Positions 51,452-60,590 of a stretch of DNA of 64,000 nucleotides are shown here, in pieces. The first letter of the stretch is position 1. Each line of letters begins with the position of its first letter. The translations under genes and the position numbers were made by a program. The stretch is from Candidatus Hydrogenedentota bacterium (GTDB lineage Bacteria; Hydrogenedentota; Hydrogenedentia; Hydrogenedentales; SLHB01): contig JAKPDK010000184.1 in the NCBI GenBank assembly GCA_029552745.1, positions 310,001-374,000 of the forward strand, given 5' to 3'. The notes under the pieces are model-generated. The model worked only from the letters and a program-made list of their open reading frames with translations, was not told the origin of the DNA and did no database searches.

Positions 51452-54400
51452 TCAATGACTTCGAGAAGCCAAGTAGTCTAGGAAAACCGCGTGCGTTTCT
51501 TCCTGGGCTCTTTTGAGTTTCTCAAGGACGTTTTCCGCTTGGTCAAGATTGCCGGACGATGCCATCTGTTCCAGAGAGGCTGACAGCTCCCGCATGCGCT
51601 TTGCCCCCATGTTTGCACTGGCGCCTTTCAGCGCATGAGCGGTTATGCGCAGCCCGGCAACATCTTGATTCTTGACAAGGACTGCCATTTCGGCGATTCG
51701 TTCCTTGCTGTCCTCATCAAATGTCTGGATCAATTCACGTTCCAGTTCCACGTCTCCGTCACAGACTTCCTGCAGTCTCGCCAAATCGACCGGGACATCC
51801 ACCGAAGCGGTTGGCAACGGAACCTTTACCGTCTCATCCGAGTCCCCGAGCCATTGCGTCAACACACGGTTCAGCTCGGTCATTTCAATGGGCTTCGCAA
51901 GATAATCGTCCATGCCGGCTTCTTGACAGCGTTCCGCATCGCCTTTCATCGCCAATGCCGTGAGGGCGACAATGGGCGTGTGGCACCCTGCGGGTTCTTT
52001 TTCACGTATGGCACGCGTCGCGGCGCAACCGTCCATCTCCGGCATCTGACAGTCCATCAGGACCAAGTCGTATCTCGAACTCAAGACTGCGGCAACAGCC
52101 TCTCTGCCATTGGAGGCACAATCGCAGTGGTAGCCGAGCCGCTCCAACATGCGGATAGCCACTTTTTGGTTAATCGGATTGTCTTCCACCAGCAGTATCT
52201 TTTTCGTCGTCCGCTTCTTCTCTCGAATACTGTGGCTTGTGACCAGCGGGGGCTCTTGTTGCTTGTCGGTCTGACGGTCTGGATGAACAAGCTCCAACAG
52301 ACAGTCCCGTAACAATCGCTGTTTAACGGGTTTCGTAAGATACGCCGCAATTCCAACCGACCGTGCCCTCGCCGCGTCCCCGCGCTGAGGCGACGAGGTC
52401 AACAAGACCAAATGGGTTTTGGCCGTTTCCGGATTCTGTTTGATCGCATCAGCAACGGCGGCTCCATCCATACCCGGCATCATATAATCCAGCAACACAA
52501 CTTGGAAAGGTTTCCCGCTCGCTGCCGCATCCTGCAGCATGGACAGGGCTTGACGCGGATCACCGGTGTCCTCGACAATACAGCCCCAGTTCTTGAGAAA
52601 TGACCGGAATACTTCACGGTTCGTGGGGCTGTCATCAACAACGAGAATACGTAAGCCTTTTAAGACTTCTTGCGTTTGAACCTTGTCTGCGGTTGGAGCG
52701 GGAACAAGTTCAAAGGGGATCCAAAAGCGGAACGTAGTACCTTTGCCAAGCGTGCTCTCCACCGAAATATCGCCACCCATAAGATTCACAAGCTGTTTGG
52801 ATATCGCAAGCCCTAGACCGGTACCGCCAAATCGACGCGTGATGGAGGAGTCGGCTTGTGTGAATGGTTTGAATAAGGAGGGTATCACCTCCGGAGCAAT
52901 GCCAACGCCCGTGTCGGCGACCTCAAAATGTACCTCGACCTGATTGTCTCGTATCTCACCACGCCGTGTACGAATGACCACTTCCCCATGATCCGTGAAT
53001 TTAACCGCGTTCCCGAGGAGATTTAAAAGAACTTGGCGAAGCCGACCCGGATCGCCTTTTAGCCGTTGTGGCACATCATGCTGAATGAGCACGATCATTT
53101 CCAGACCTTTTTGGTGGGCACGGTGTGCCAACACATCGGCGACATCTTCCACAGTCGTGCGCAGATCGAATTCGATGCGCTCCAAGTCGATTTTGCCGGC
53201 TTCGATCTTAGAAAAATCCAGAATATCGTTTATGACGCTCAAAAGCGCATCGGCGGAACTGCGAACAATTTCGGCAAACTCCCGTTGCTCCTCCGTGAGC
53301 TTCGTCCCCAGAAGAAGTTCCGTCATGCCGATCACCCCGTTAAGCGGGGTGCGAATCTCATGACTCATATTTGCAAGGAAAGCGCTTTTAGCCCGGTTCG
53401 CCGCTTCGGCTTCATATGCCATTTGATTGGCACGCTCAATGGCTTTTTCCAATTCAAGGTTTGTCGCTTCGAGCCACTTCGCATGTTCGGCAAGCAACGT
53501 TTCCGCCCGTTTGCGCCCGGCGATGTCCGTATAGACACCCACCAGCCCAATAACAGCCTCGGAATCATCTCGTATAATGCCACTGCGGAAAATCACCGGA
53601 ACAGTCTTTCCGGAACGGGTGCGCACCTCCGTCTCCCCCTCGTAAGGTTCTCCTCGTAAAGCCGCCGTTGCCGCCGCCCGAGCAAACGCTCGATCGGCAA
53701 ACAAGCCCGTGGCTCCCCCAACACGCCGTAAGGAATGGACATCGTATTCAAAGAGACGCTGAAACGCTTGGTTCACGAAAATGGGTCTGCCGCGCTCGTC
53801 CGATATACCAATAGCGTCACCCGCATGCTCCACCGCAGCACGAATTTTGTACAGCTCCCGTTGCGCCTCTATCCGTTCCGTCACATCGCGAATGACCGCG
53901 ATGGCATGCCATTTCCCTCGATATTGCACACGAGACACCGTGAGTTCCACAGAAAACTCACTGCCATCCTTACGGAGGGCTTGCATCTCCAAGGTGCGTC
54001 CAAAAACGACACCCTTGCCGGTTTTCTGGAAGGTTTCCAGACCCTGATGGGCTTGTTGCAAAACACGCTGAGGCGCTATCAATTCATGTAAATCTTTTCC
54101 CAATACCTCTTGAGGGGTATATCCAAACATGTCCGTTGCGGCTTGGTTCCACGAGCAGACCTTGCCCTCGTCGTCTATCATCACAATGGCATCGACCGTA
54201 GAGGCGGTGATTGTTCGAAAACGTTCCTCGTTTTCACGCAGCTCCGTAATAAAACGAGCGCGATGTTCCTCTACGGCCACCGCAGAAGCAATGATGCTCA
54301 AGAAATGTTTGTCTTCTGCATCGGGCTCATAGTCGTCGGTGTAGACGATACACAAAGACCCGACGCTCCTATCTCCCACCTTGACAGCTTTACCCATATA

Positions 54401-55294
54401 TGTCTTCAAGCCATAGCGAAGAACATTCGGGTCCGTTTCCGCGTATCTTGAGTGCGGCAAATCGGTCACCAGAACGACGTCATCTCCTCCCTGGAGGATA
54501 ACGTCGGTACAGATATGTCCCGAGGCTTTGTCTATGGGATTAAAATCGCCTGGGGTATGCCAACCAGCAAGAGAACACAAAAGGTCACCCTCAAGTCGGT
54601 TGTAAAGGGCACAACCAGCCTGAAGGAGTTCCCCACAGAGGTGTACCAATCGGGTTATGTTTTCGGTCGGGTCTTCCGAAAGGTGCAAGAGACAATCATT
54701 TAGGCGAATAATACGCTCTTCAGAACGCTTCGCTTTGTGAATATCCTCGAATAGACCTTCAAAATACTGGATATTGCCCGAGGTGTCGCGAACGACCTTA
54801 ACAGTAACCGCGACCCAAAAAGGAGTACCGTCTTTGCGACGCATAAGTACTTCGCGACGGACTACTTCCCCCTTTTCCAAGACCTCTTGTATAAGCGCGG
54901 CGCGGTCCGCGGGATCCCTATAGAGTTCCGAAACCGGAATACAAATAAGTTCCGCCACCGAACTGTATCCGAATAACCGCGCAAACGCAGGATTCGCCAT
55001 CAGAAACTTTCCATCCCGATTTGAACGGCATATTCCGACAGGAAGATTGTCCACCAACGTGATATACGGGTCCGTAGCGGAAACAGACTCTCTTCTTCTC
55101 GCATTCCGTAAGATGCGATAAGCTGCGACGCCCAAAACCAAACCCAACAAGAAGCCGCAGAGGACAAGTGCGGCGCCGACTCCGGGTCGATTCATTAAGA
55201 GAGCTGCATAAACCAGCCCGGAAGCATGGGCCGTCGCCGATAGAGGCCACAAAAAGTACCCACGTTCAAGTTTGCGCCTATTATGGGTAATCAT
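51452..55294 (-). CDS. Multi-PAS/GAF hybrid sensor histidine kinase with two receiver domains and C-terminal HPt
   Basis: TM segments, PAS repeats, MSHEIRTPLNGVIGM (HisKA), HATPase FGGTGLGLAISKQLV, two REC domains (ILVVDDSPTNREV; ILLVEDNPINQKV), HPt ITAHALKGASANMGA. Confidence 0.95.
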   Translation of the reverse strand: MITHNRRKLERGYFLWPLSATAHASGLVYAALLMNRPGVGAALVLCGFLLGLVLGVAAYRILRNARRRESVSATDPYITLVDNLPVGICRSNRDGKFLMANPAFARLFGYSSVAELICIPVSELYRDPADRAALIQEVLEKGEVVRREVLMRRKDGTPFWVAVTVKVVRDTSGNIQYFEGLFEDIHKAKRSEERIIRLNDCLLHLSEDPTENITRLVHLCGELLQAGCALYNRLEGDLLCSLAGWHTPGDFNPIDKASGHICTDVILQGGDDVVLVTDLPHSRYAETDPNVLRYGLKTYMGKAVKVGDRSVGSLCIVYTDDYEPDAEDKHFLSIIASAVAVEEHRARFITELRENEERFRTITASTVDAIVMIDDEGKVCSWNQAATDMFGYTPQEVLGKDLHELIAPQRVLQQAHQGLETFQKTGKGVVFGRTLEMQALRKDGSEFSVELTVSRVQYRGKWHAIAVIRDVTERIEAQRELYKIRAAVEHAGDAIGISDERGRPIFVNQAFQRLFEYDVHSLRRVGGATGLFADRAFARAAATAALRGEPYEGETEVRTRSGKTVPVIFRSGIIRDDSEAVIGLVGVYTDIAGRKRAETLLAEHAKWLEATNLELEKAIERANQMAYEAEAANRAKSAFLANMSHEIRTPLNGVIGMTELLLGTKLTEEQREFAEIVRSSADALLSVINDILDFSKIEAGKIDLERIEFDLRTTVEDVADVLAHRAHQKGLEMIVLIQHDVPQRLKGDPGRLRQVLLNLLGNAVKFTDHGEVVIRTRRGEIRDNQVEVHFEVADTGVGIAPEVIPSLFKPFTQADSSITRRFGGTGLGLAISKQLVNLMGGDISVESTLGKGTTFRFWIPFELVPAPTADKVQTQEVLKGLRILVVDDSPTNREVFRSFLKNWGCIVEDTGDPRQALSMLQDAAASGKPFQVVLLDYMMPGMDGAAVADAIKQNPETAKTHLVLLTSSPQRGDAARARSVGIAAYLTKPVKQRLLRDCLLELVHPDRQTDKQQEPPLVTSHSIREKKRTTKKILLVEDNPINQKVAIRMLERLGYHCDCASNGREAVAAVLSSRYDLVLMDCQMPEMDGCAATRAIREKEPAGCHTPIVALTALAMKGDAERCQEAGMDDYLAKPIEMTELNRVLTQWLGDSDETVKVPLPTASVDVPVDLARLQEVCDGDVELERELIQTFDEDSKERIAEMAVLVKNQDVAGLRITAHALKGASANMGAKRMRELSASLEQMASSGNLDQAENVLEKLKRAQEETHAVFLDYLASRSH

Positions 55295-55489
55295 ACGCCA
55301 AATATAGTGCCAAAGGTTGAGAACTCGATCAACAAAAACATGTGGAAAACAGGTTCCTTTAATGGCGTTATGACGGTCGGTACTAGGCTGAACGATTTAG
55401 CATCACAAGTGGGGCGAAAAGTCTTCTGTGCCTGCTCCTACGGCACACCAGCTCGGGGGAGTTCTCTAACTGGAGCAGAACGACTTCCG

Positions 55490-55897
55490 CTATTTTTCTT
55501 GCTGGAGATGATCCAAGACTTGAGTTGTAACGTTGTCCGCCGTGATGGGAGGATTCAGCCCATTCAGATAGCCAAGGCGTGCAATAAGATCATAGTCAGA
55601 CTGCCGAGCAAAAGAGGTGATGGCGAGGATCGATCGATGACTGGCTTGTTCCATGAGAATCCAGTAGCGCCCCGTCCCCCGTTCCACCTTCTCTTTTTCG
55701 ACTGTCTTAAATTCAGGGGTACTGCGAACTACATCCAGGATGGAAACTTGTCCCGGCTTGTTAAAAGAATCGGGGTTCCCCCAGTATATTTTCTTGAGGT
55801 CCCGCTGTTCGGGGGGTACGGACGCCCCCTCAGATAGCGGCACAAGCCCCACTCCCGAAATTAGGATGAACAGAACGAGTCGGAGTATTCGCTTCAT
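55490..55897 (-). CDS. Small secreted hypothetical protein
   Basis: Signal peptide MKRILRLVLFILISGVGLVPLSEGA; about 135 aa. Confidence 0.65.
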   Translation of the reverse strand: MKRILRLVLFILISGVGLVPLSEGASVPPEQRDLKKIYWGNPDSFNKPGQVSILDVVRSTPEFKTVEKEKVERGTGRYWILMEQASHRSILAITSFARQSDYDLIARLGYLNGLNPPITADNVTTQVLDHLQQEK

Positions 55898-56067
55898 AAG
55901 CTTATCCTCCCTACCCACATATGTCTTGCTCAAAGCGAACAGCTTCTCGCTTTCAGTTACTACAATACCCTTTCAATGGAAATAGGTTTCATGGGTAGCC
56001 CCAAAGTGGCGTGTTTCGTACTTTTTCGGAAAAGAAGGGTTTACGGATAGGCAAATAACATTGAAAT

Positions 56068-56116
56068 ATACATATTGAAACCTATGTATGTTTTGTGTAT
56101 TATAGAAATATGCATA
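56068..56116 (+). promoter_or_regulatory. Putative sigma70 promoter (TTGAAA-17-TATTAT) with ATACATA-N8-TATGTAT inverted repeat
   Basis: TTGAAA 56075-56080, TATTAT 56098-56103, spacer 17; ATG at 56110, 7 nt after the -10; inverted repeat 56068-56074/56083-56089; TATGCATA 56109-56116. Confidence 0.6.
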
Positions 56117-56796
56117 CAGCTATCGATCCAGAACGGAACATCGAACTGGATAGTTCCCAAATCGATTTCGAAACGGGACTGGCTAGGTATGACGCCTTCT
56201 TGGCATGTTGGCAAGCCGAGACATCTTCTGCTGGTAACCACGGTTCATCCGTATCCATGGCGCTTATTGACTTAGACCGGTTCGGGACCTTAAATAGCCA
56301 GATCGGACGGGCTCAAGCCGATGAGGTGTTACGGCAAACGGCGGGTTTTCTTCTAAACGCAATTGGTTCCGAGGGCAAAGTCTTCCGGTACGGCGGCGAT
56401 GCCTTTGCGGTCGTGATGCCAGGCACCGAAAAAGAACAAGCCTTTTTTCTCATAGAAAAGACCCGCGTCGCATTTGCAGAACTTTCGAAAACAAGAACGC
56501 CAACCGAAAACATTGCTGCAGAAGTCACATTCTCCGCGGGTATTGCCACGTATCCCGACGACGGTGGAACACCGATGGACGTGATTCGAAAAGCAAATGA
56601 GGCAATGTACCGTGCTAAAAACAACGGGCGCAATCGGGTGTGCATCGCGCGGGAAGAAAAAATGGTTACAAAAACAAGCCATTATACCCAGGGGCAGTTG
56701 CAGGGACTCTCCCGTTTAGCGAAACGTATGGGCGTGGGTGAAGCGGTTTTGCTTCGAGAAGCCTTGGATGATTTGTTGCGCAAATACAATGCATAA
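56110..56796 (+). CDS. Degenerate GGDEF-domain protein (GGDAF) with C-terminal ribbon-helix-helix-like segment
   Basis: [74 protein letters not shown]; tail [42 protein letters not shown]. Confidence 0.88.
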
Positions 56797-56822
56797 AGCA
56801 TGAGACGATAGGAGCACAGCGT

Positions 56823-58232
56823 ATGGCGAAAAACATCTACGAAAAGATTTGGGAAGCTCACGTGGTTTACGAACAGCCGGGACAGGACAGCATTCTGTAC
56901 ATCGACAGACACTATGTCCATGAAGTAACCTCACCGCAAGCGTTCGAGGGACTGCGCTTGGCAGGCCGAAAGGTGAGACGGCCGGACATGACGTTCGCTA
57001 CAATGGACCACAATATCCCGACGACAGACCGCTCGAAGCCGATAACCGATGCATTGTCCCGGAAACAGGTGGAAACACTGCGCAACAATTGTCGGGAATT
57101 TGGCATACGTTGTTTTGATATAACCGACACGCGCAACGGCATCGTACACGTGATTGGACCCGAGCTAGGATTAACCCAACCCGGAATGACCGTCGTTTGT
57201 GGTGATTCGCATACGGCTACCCATGGGGCGCTGGGCGCTTTGGCGTTCGGTATCGGAACTTCGGAAGTCGAGCATGTACTGGCCACCCAAACGCTGTTAC
57301 AACGCAAGTCAAAAACGATGCAAATCTGTGTAAACGGAACGTTGGCGCCGGGAATCACGGCAAAGGATGTCATTCTAGCCATAATCGGCAAAATCGGGGC
57401 GAACGGAGGAACAGGCTATGTGGTCGAGTACACCGGGGACGTTATACGCAACTTTAGCATGGAAGGAAGGCTCACTATTTGCAACATGAGTATCGAGGCG
57501 GGCGCCCGCGCCGGGCTGGTGTCGCCGGATGATACCACGTTTGCTTACCTGAAAGGACGCGAATACATCCCCAAAGATAAAGCCTGGGAGACGTTGATAT
57601 CGGAATGGAGCGCTTGGGCGTCGGACCCCGGCTGCGGGTATGATCGCACGGTGGAACTGAACGGCGCAGATATTGAGCCGCAAGTGACTTGGGGTACGTC
57701 ACCGGAGATGGTAGCGCCCATTAGTGGACACGTGCCCCACTTAAGTGAAATTACCGACGCGGATCGGCGCGCCGCTGCGGCACGCGCGCTTGAATACATG
57801 GGACTTGCCGAGGGAACGCCCATAACCGACATCCCCGTGAATAAGGTGTTCATCGGATCTTGCACCAATGGGCGATTGGAGGATTTACGAGATGCCGCGC
57901 GTGTGGTGCAAGGGTACAAAGTGGATTCATCCATTGACCAAGCTCTTGTGGTGCCCGGTTCCCAGCAAGTGAAACTGGAGGCAGAGCGAGAGGGTTTGGA
58001 CAAGATATTCCGGGAAGCGGGTTTTGAGTGGCGAGAATCAGGTTGTTCGATGTGTTTAGCAATGAACGATGACCGGCTGAACCCGGGCGACCGTTGCGCA
58101 GCCACGTCGAACCGCAATTTTGAAGGCAGACAAGGCAAAGGCGGGCGGACCCACCTGGTAAGCCCTGCGATGGCCGCTGCCGCCGCTGTTAAGGGACATT
58201 TTGTCGATATTCGTCGTTGGGCGTACAAGTAA
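56823..58232 (+). CDS. leuC: 3-isopropylmalate dehydratase large subunit
   Basis: [95 protein letters not shown]. Confidence 0.95.
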
Positions 58233-58272
58233 ACGCTTGCATGAGTTAGGCTAGTAAAAACGGAGACAGGTC

Positions 58273-58869
58273 ATGGAGAAATTTGTGACGTTACACGGGT
58301 TGGTTGCCCCGTTGGATCGGATGAATGTGGATACGGATCAGATCATTCCGAAACAATTTCTGAAACGGATTGAACGCACGGGCTATGCGGACGCCTTGTT
58401 TTATGATTGGCGTTTTTTGGCAGATGGAAAGACGCCAAATCCGGACTTTGAGCTTAACGCCCCCCGGTATCAAGGCGCCTCTATCTTACTTGCACGAGAT
58501 AACTTTGGTTGTGGATCTTCTCGGGAACATGCGCCCTGGGCGTTGCATGACTACGGGTTCCGGTGTATTCTTGCCCCATCGTTTGCCGACATCTTTTACA
58601 ACAACTGTTTTAACAACGGTCTTTTGCCGATCCGACTGGATGGAAAAATAGTAGACAAGTTGTTCCACGAGGTTCGTGCATGCGAGGGATATGCCCTTGA
58701 TGTAAACCTGCCCGACCAGACGATTGCAACGCCGTCCGGAGAGGTCATTTCGTTCGAGATTGGGGCTTTCCTGAAAGAGCGTTTACTAAACGGATGGGAC
58801 CAGATCGCATTGACCTTGCGCCATGAAGATAAAATTCTCGCATACGAACGTGCCAGGGGTATAATATAA
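58273..58869 (+). CDS. leuD: 3-isopropylmalate dehydratase small subunit
   Basis: [59 protein letters not shown]. Confidence 0.95.
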
Positions 58870-58931
58870 AAACAGTCATGTAGTGCGGCGCGAATTGAGT
58901 CGCGCATTTGTTAAAAAAGGTAGGACATGAC

Positions 58932-60590
58932 ATGTTTATCCTCTTGTTGGTGTGTTCCATTTTCTTCTATGTGATCGTCTACTTCCTGTACGGCGGTTTT
59001 TTGGCGCGGGTCTTAGGTCTGGACGATACCAAAGCGGTACCTTCCCAAACCCTGGCGGATGGCGTGGATTATTGCGCCGCTCACCCAGCGGTACTCATGG
59101 GGCATCACTTTTCCTCCATCGCCGGCGCGGGTCCCATTGTGGGTCCTATTGCCGCGGCCCTCTTGTTTGGGTGGTTTCCGGCACTGTTGTGGTGTTTGCT
59201 CGGGGCGGCGTTCCTTGGCGGCGTGCACGATATGGCTGCCATCGTTGCCTCGGTTCGACATGAAGGAAAATCCATCGGAGAAGTTATCGACCGTTGGGTG
59301 GGAAGAAGAGGCAAACGTCTCTTCTTATGTTTTACATGGTTTGCGCTGATTCTCGTCGTGGCGGTTTTCCTTGAGTTATCTGCCAAGACATTTGCTCAAG
59401 AACCTGCCGTGGCGTTTTCCGGCATCTTATATATGGGGCTTGCGGTGATATTCGGCCTTGCCGTTTACCGATTCAAGGTGCCCCTTTGGCTTTCCACCGT
59501 GGTACTGCTTCCCATTGTGCTGGGCGCAGTTTGGTACGGTGTCTCCGCTGAATGGGTCAAAACCTGGTTTTCATGGAGCATAGACACGTGGCGTATCGTT
59601 CTCGCGGGCTATGTGATCGTTGCCTCCGTACTGCCGGTCTGGCTGTTGTTACAACCACGAGATTATCTCGCTTCTTTTGTCCTTTATTTCGCCCTGGGTA
59701 TCAGCATCATTGGCATTCTGCTCGGTGGCGCTCATCTTCAATCTTCGTTGCCAGCATTCAAATCGTTCCATACGGAACAGGGCGAACAGCTTTGGCCCAT
59801 GTTGTTCATCATGGTTGCCTGTGGGGCGATCTCTGGGTTCCATTCGCTGGTTGCCAGTGGAACTACCGCCAAACAAATCCGGAGAGAGTCAGACGCAACA
59901 TTAATTGGATATGGCGCCATGTTGATAGAGGGCGTTTTGGCGGTTGTAGCCATCATAACGGTAATGATTGTGGGTAGTGTGCAAGGAAAAACGCCTGTCG
60001 CCATCTTTAGTAGCGGCTTCGGGCAGTTTGCTGCGGTATTAGGCATTCGCGCAGAAGTCGGCACCGCTCTAGGCCTTTTGGCGATCAATACCTTCATTCT
60101 CACGTCACTTGATACGGCTTCTCGTATCGCGCGTTATCAACTTCAAGAGTTGACGAATATGAAACTGGACCGATATTCCGCAACCCTTGCCGGGGTGGTG
60201 CTTGCGTTGGCGCTTATCTATGTGAAGACCGGCGATGTGCCTGCTCATGAACGTATTTGGCCCATGTTTGGCACGTCGAATCAGCTGGTTGCCGCGCTGG
60301 CGCTCTTGGGCGTATCTCTCTGGGTAATTAAAGGCTTAAAAAAGCCAGCAACCTTTTTGATTATCCCGATGATTTTCATGGCGCTGACCACGTTTGCGGC
60401 TCTGGTGTTTTTGTTGCAAAACTCTCTTGATAAAGGGGATTATGTGCTGGGCGTCATTGCCGCCGTGTTGTTGGTATTGGCAATTTTGCTCTACCGAGAA
60501 GCTTGGTACGCCTTTACGCGGGGTTCGGAAGCAGAAAACAATCGCCACGAACCGCTCCCCCAAACTCTGCAGACCAGCGAAGGAAAATAG
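58932..60590 (+). CDS. Carbon starvation CstA family protein
   Basis: HHFSSIAGAGPIVGPIAAALLFGWFPALLWCLLGAAFLGGVHDMAAIVASVRHEGKSIGEV; ATG 58932 after AGGTAGGA. Confidence 0.93.
   Translation: MFILLLVCSIFFYVIVYFLYGGFLARVLGLDDTKAVPSQTLADGVDYCAAHPAVLMGHHFSSIAGAGPIVGPIAAALLFGWFPALLWCLLGAAFLGGVHDMAAIVASVRHEGKSIGEVIDRWVGRRGKRLFLCFTWFALILVVAVFLELSAKTFAQEPAVAFSGILYMGLAVIFGLAVYRFKVPLWLSTVVLLPIVLGAVWYGVSAEWVKTWFSWSIDTWRIVLAGYVIVASVLPVWLLLQPRDYLASFVLYFALGISIIGILLGGAHLQSSLPAFKSFHTEQGEQLWPMLFIMVACGAISGFHSLVASGTTAKQIRRESDATLIGYGAMLIEGVLAVVAIITVMIVGSVQGKTPVAIFSSGFGQFAAVLGIRAEVGTALGLLAINTFILTSLDTASRIARYQLQELTNMKLDRYSATLAGVVLALALIYVKTGDVPAHERIWPMFGTSNQLVAALALLGVSLWVIKGLKKPATFLIIPMIFMALTTFAALVFLLQNSLDKGDYVLGVIAAVLLVLAILLYREAWYAFTRGSEAENNRHEPLPQTLQTSEGK

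Follow-up and report, generated by a model that had tools for sequence, protein, structure and literature searches.

Results

A GGDEF-RHH gene ahead of leuC and leuD

The window analysed here, a stretch of 64,000 nucleotides from a Candidatus Hydrogenedentota bacterium, carries a gene whose product joins a GGDEF domain to a C-terminal ribbon-helix-helix (RHH) tail, with the start of leuC 26 nt after it (Table 1). A re-reading of the sequence matched exactly the ORF, the coordinates and the GGDAF codons of an original prediction made from the letters alone, and the protein has, as claimed there, no receiver, PAS or TM segment. The GGDEF domain is recognized by profile as well as by fold, the fold search returning diguanylate cyclases, and an AlphaFold2 model of the full protein (mean pLDDT 87) comprises this domain and two C-terminal helices. 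On the minus strand, an ORF of 1280 residues at 51452-55294 reads by eye as a hybrid sensor kinase with PAS, GAF, histidine kinase, two receiver and HPt domains.

Table 1. Features of the GGDEF-RHH locus, in window coordinates
Feature	Position	Strand	Basis
Candidate operator, TACATATTGAAACCTATGTA (TACATA-N8-TATGTA inverted repeat)	56069..56088	.	Position conserved across members from several phyla; roughly one site in each genome
Promoter-like TTGAAA-17-TATTAT	56075..56103	+	Consensus scan 10/12; -35 inside operator
GGDEF-RHH gene	56110..56796	+	228 aa; ORF and orthologs
GGDEF domain, residues 17-176	56158..56637	+	PF00990 108 bits; PDB diguanylate cyclases by sequence and fold
GGDAF motif, residues 95-99	56392..56406	+	Sequence
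RHH tail, residues 185-228	56662..56793	+	PF12651 above cut-off; AlphaFold2; Foldseek
leuC, 3-isopropylmalate dehydratase large subunit	56823..58232	+	TIGR00170 786 bits, cut-off 560; linkage
leuD, 3-isopropylmalate dehydratase small subunit	58273..58869	+	TIGR00171 288 bits, cut-off 116; linkage

The C-terminal tail

The RHH tail that had been proposed at the C-terminus is borne out by profile, model and fold search. Pfam model PF12651 (RHH_3) scores 28.7 bits on the window protein against a cut-off of 21.6, and 31.4 bits on the isolated tail. AlphaFold2 places helices at residues 194-207 and 211-227 of the full protein and returns the same two when the tail is modelled by itself; the ribbon segment (about 185-192) is disordered and without a strand in these monomers, since an RHH ribbon pairs only in the dimer. 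With the tail model as a Foldseek query, the titles of nearly all of the top 36 PDB matches mark them as RHH proteins, among them CopG (the best), PutA (2rbf, 2gpe), ORF56, AmrZ, Arc and CdbA (6sbx); the E-values are weak (0.18 or higher), owing to the very small size of the domain. By profile and model, the tail, a predicted strand-helix-turn-helix of about 45 residues, belongs to the RHH (MetJ/Arc/CopG) superfamily.

All 35 family members have Met at the first residue of the tail (Met185, 56662-56664), even those in which the residues before it differ. A short RHH protein made from an internal start at this codon is unsupported: GAG codons, a possible ribosome site, show no excess ahead of the invariant Met (28 GAA and 28 GAG, against 305 and 429 overall), and no ribosome site is visible in the Chloroflexota members.

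Breadth and descent of the family

The tail profile finds matches in 26 of 68 Candidatus Hydrogenedentota genomes, in a single copy each once pieces at contig edges are set aside. Wherever the contig permits, the tail is fused to a GGDEF domain; all non-edge tails lie in open frames of at least 213 residues, and no stand-alone copy was seen in the 68 genomes. Full-length orthologs at 48-57% identity were recovered in a search of 60 genomes, and an alignment-based search of the genome collection returned relatives labelled Hydrogenedentota, Armatimonadota, Clostridia, Chloroflexota, Planctomycetota and Gemmatimonadota. The fusion is kept in 35 aligned members and is thus more than chance, and the GGDEF-domain tree is compatible with its having arisen once (support 88/92). 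Mean identity to the window protein is 77% for the tail versus 38% for the GGDEF domain, the tail being the higher in 34 of 34 comparisons. With orthologs in the phylum and relatives in other phyla, the family is, as judged from sequence, real and not a one-off. A literature search, with most subscription journals outside its reach, found no published account of a GGDEF-RHH fusion or family.

Hydrogenedentota-type copies also occur on contigs labelled Nitrospiraceae (L049), Chitinophagaceae (L056) and Rhodothermaeota (L064), which are likely to be mis-binned or chimeric, L056 above all.

A conserved palindrome at the promoter

Upstream sequences of the orthologs contain the palindrome TACATA-N8-TATGTA. 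Among 38 such upstream regions it is exact in 12, has one mismatch in 2 and two mismatches in 11; outside them, 467,666 nt of locus sequence hold only 2 exact palindromes, each at the promoter of a tandem GGDEF-GGDEF-RHH gene. Exact sites in 60 genomes (own and relatives) number 20, compared with 12 matches to the reversed control, and 14 of the 20 are at a GGDEF-RHH promoter, one of these (G001) preceding a gene copy truncated by the contig end. The 20-nt consensus, allowed up to three mismatches in 25 genomes, falls in 15 places, 14 of them at the GGDEF-RHH gene. In the Planctomycetota members the palindrome was not found. Exact operators stand at the promoter of the longer, tandem-GGDEF gene in L074 and L077.

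From this distribution, TACATA-N8-TATGTA is very probably the protein's own, local operator. The original reading of the protein as a one-component DNA-binding regulator is now strongly supported by the RHH profile and fold, the very high conservation of the tail and a promoter palindrome that accompanies the protein from phylum to phylum, so that DNA binding is a well supported prediction; the binding test on the gene's own promoter that accompanied that reading was well aimed, since the likely operator sits there. Searches for a wider regulon in the window's genome gave 55 places with up to two mismatches versus 98 for the reversed control; other exact or near sites are scattered, and no regulon can be named beyond the gene's own promoter.

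Promoter consensus scans yield about equal numbers of sites in shuffled DNA, so the promoter call draws its support from coinciding with the conserved palindrome. Of 30 loci, only 12 show a clear consensus promoter. In the window the -10 box stops 6 nt short of the ATG (56098-56110), several orthologs are similar, and the transcript may be leaderless. No Rfam match to an RNA leader or riboswitch was found in 54000-60000.

A predicted nucleotide pocket with a variable motif

Residues of the family were matched to those of PleD and are compared in PleD numbering. The fourth motif residue is Ala in 21 of the 35 members, Glu in 11 and another residue in 3, and the motif Asp (D97) is invariant; GGDA is fixed in the Hydrogenedentota members, with AGDQF, AADRF or SGDIF elsewhere. 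At the PleD GTP contacts D327, N335 and D344 the family has Asp (35/35), Asn (34/35) and Asp (35/35), and at E370, K442 and R446 it has Asp (35/35), Lys (35/35) and Arg (32/35). The roles of these PleD residues, including D344 as a guanine contact, are those given in PMC7288161. The domain had been called a degenerate GGDEF, which is right for the fourth motif residue (Glu to Ala) but not for the nucleotide-binding residues, which are kept; similarly, positions in the segment GRAQADEVL do differ as described (His to Arg, Gly to Ala), but the neighbouring Asp equivalent to PleD D344 is retained. The RxxD site for inhibition by c-di-GMP (I-site), five residues before the motif, is absent, with Asp in 0 of 35 members and Gly in the window protein at both the R359 and D362 positions of PleD.

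An active diguanylate cyclase is expected to have GG(D/E)EF, where the window protein has GGDAF, and its combination of a non-canonical motif with retained GTP-contact residues is that of a GTP sensor of the CC3396 type. The pattern favours nucleotide binding, with catalysis lacking or dispensable; we infer from it a sensor of GTP or a cyclic dinucleotide that has lost cyclase activity. A second ligand candidate is (p)ppGpp: PDB entries 9g85 and 9g86, by their titles, contain PleD with c-di-GMP and ppGpp or pppGpp, and these titles would fit GGDEF proteins that bind (p)ppGpp.

The intact GTP contacts would also suit a working diguanylate cyclase that is anchored on DNA, or dimerised, by its RHH tail, local c-di-GMP being the output. 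Armatimonadota and Chloroflexia members do retain GGDEF, and the window protein clusters in the tree with one GGDEF-bearing relative, L052. We nevertheless consider this reading unlikely: GGDA is fixed in the Hydrogenedentota members and the motif is altered in others elsewhere, the position of PleD K332 is Lys in 0 of 35 (though its role in PleD is main-chain), and a conserved promoter site is unneeded for tethering.

The missing RxxD site weighs also against a c-di-GMP receptor resembling CdbA of Myxococcus xanthus, in which the dinucleotide, held at the RHH ribbon or in the GGDEF active site, would compete with DNA. CdbA is an RHH protein for which c-di-GMP and DNA are mutually exclusive, and K8, S10, R27 and R30 are its residues for comparison (PMC7156744). 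Tail residues K188, S190 and Y192 reproduce the pattern of CdbA K8, S10 and Y12, but KTSxY is common among RHH ribbons and the arginines R27 and R30 have no clear match (register by eye), which leaves such a receptor rather doubtful.

About one operator per genome and a variable GGDEF motif would be expected of a simple autorepressor whose GGDEF domain merely aids oligomerisation and senses nothing. That, too, is improbable, as a purely structural role leaves unexplained why the guanine and phosphate contacts hardly vary between phyla.

Linkage to leuCD

Counting one locus per genome, window included, the regulator gene precedes leuC, and usually then leuD, in the same orientation in 21 of 22 assessable Hydrogenedentota-type loci, the sole exception being L056 on its chimeric-looking contig. 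The gap to leuC is 3 to 111 nt in about half of the loci, and other genes intervene in the rest; upstream neighbours are hardly shared. No leu genes adjoining the regulator were found in other phyla, and the linkage was observed in Hydrogenedentota-type loci only. The cultured members Fervidicella metallireducens (L063) and Anaerolinea thermolimosa (L074) do not show it. The linkage might be incidental, the gene controlling itself alone or unrecognised targets, as members in Clostridia, Chloroflexota and Planctomycetota adjoin unrelated genes and intervening genes separate the pair in some Hydrogenedentota. We think this unlikely, given that leuC remains downstream on the same strand in many genera whose upstream genes vary. 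In Hydrogenedentota the regulator and leuC-leuD probably share a transcript.

Discussion

A proposed mechanism

The reading that we prefer, and hold to be reasonably probable, is that of a one-component regulator which controls its own gene together with leuCD and binds a guanine nucleotide. The RHH tail would dimerise and bind TACATA-N8-TATGTA in its own promoter. Autorepression, and with it the direction of control, is predicted because protein on the operator would mask the -35 box, most likely repressing its own transcript. In Hydrogenedentota this transcript probably runs on into leuC-leuD, whereby isopropylmalate isomerase would be co-controlled. The GGDEF domain is most likely a guanine-nucleotide receptor (for GTP, or for (p)ppGpp in the same pocket) and not a diguanylate cyclase; nucleotide binding or pairing of GGDEF domains would alter the placement of two RHH dimers on the operator. 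More tentatively, the proteins may form an undescribed family of one-component regulators: the GGDEF domain, having lost its catalysis, would read GTP or (p)ppGpp and itself switch an RHH repressor, which would provide bacteria outside the Firmicutes with a CodY-like link between purine nucleotide or starvation status and leucine biosynthesis.

Relation to known systems

PutA of Escherichia coli and others is an RHH domain fused to a metabolic flavoenzyme and represses its own operon. The GGDEF-RHH protein resembles it in joining an RHH domain to a larger domain that does not bind DNA, in its predicted self-regulation, in its linked metabolic genes and in the Foldseek match of its tail; the RHH domain of PutA, however, is N-terminal with an enzyme as partner, whereas here it is C-terminal with a GGDEF partner. 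CodY of Firmicutes couples branched-chain amino acid synthesis to GTP, a task that the GGDEF-RHH protein would share if it senses GTP as proposed, but CodY is built of unrelated domains (GAF plus winged helix) and has a large regulon. CopG and Arc are likewise RHH repressors with small palindromic operators, but without a sensor domain. Among GGDEF proteins the closest parallel is Caulobacter CC3396, a GTP-binding sensor without the canonical motif (PMC7288161); GTP binding is known for it and predicted for the window protein, and its GGDEF domain regulates an adjacent EAL phosphodiesterase rather than DNA binding. CdbA shares an RHH fold tied to guanine-nucleotide signalling, a tie that is conjectural for the window protein, but has no GGDEF domain, many genomic sites and a nucleoid role, in contrast to about one site per genome for the GGDEF-RHH family.

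New in the present analysis are the predicted promoter operator, the leuCD linkage and the near-invariant GTP contacts combined with a variable fourth residue and no I-site. The original prediction had mentioned neither the operator nor the linkage, nor how widely the family occurs. A GGDEF protein is normally taken for a c-di-GMP enzyme; the present family suggests that the fold has been reused as a transcription-factor sensor across several phyla, and 'diguanylate cyclase' annotations of its members are probably misleading. With a defined candidate operator and target operon, a single small protein and a short DNA site are enough to put the ligand and the mechanism directly to the test.

Variant members

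Some of the 11 members with an intact fourth Glu may, to judge by this residue, still make c-di-GMP. Extra domains occur in some relatives: the Chloroflexota members L074, L075 and L077 have a second GGDEF, forming a tandem pair N-terminal to the RHH tail, and a clostridial relative (L071, 7992-9143) has, by eye, an additional receiver-like (CheY-type) domain C-terminal to it. A phage origin of the family was rejected, the phage matches being GGDEF proteins with less than 60% identity. One IMG/VR viral contig (L112, 4305-4985) carries a full-length clostridial-type GGDEF-RHH gene with the motif GGDEF, near the contig end and adjoining a long ORF.
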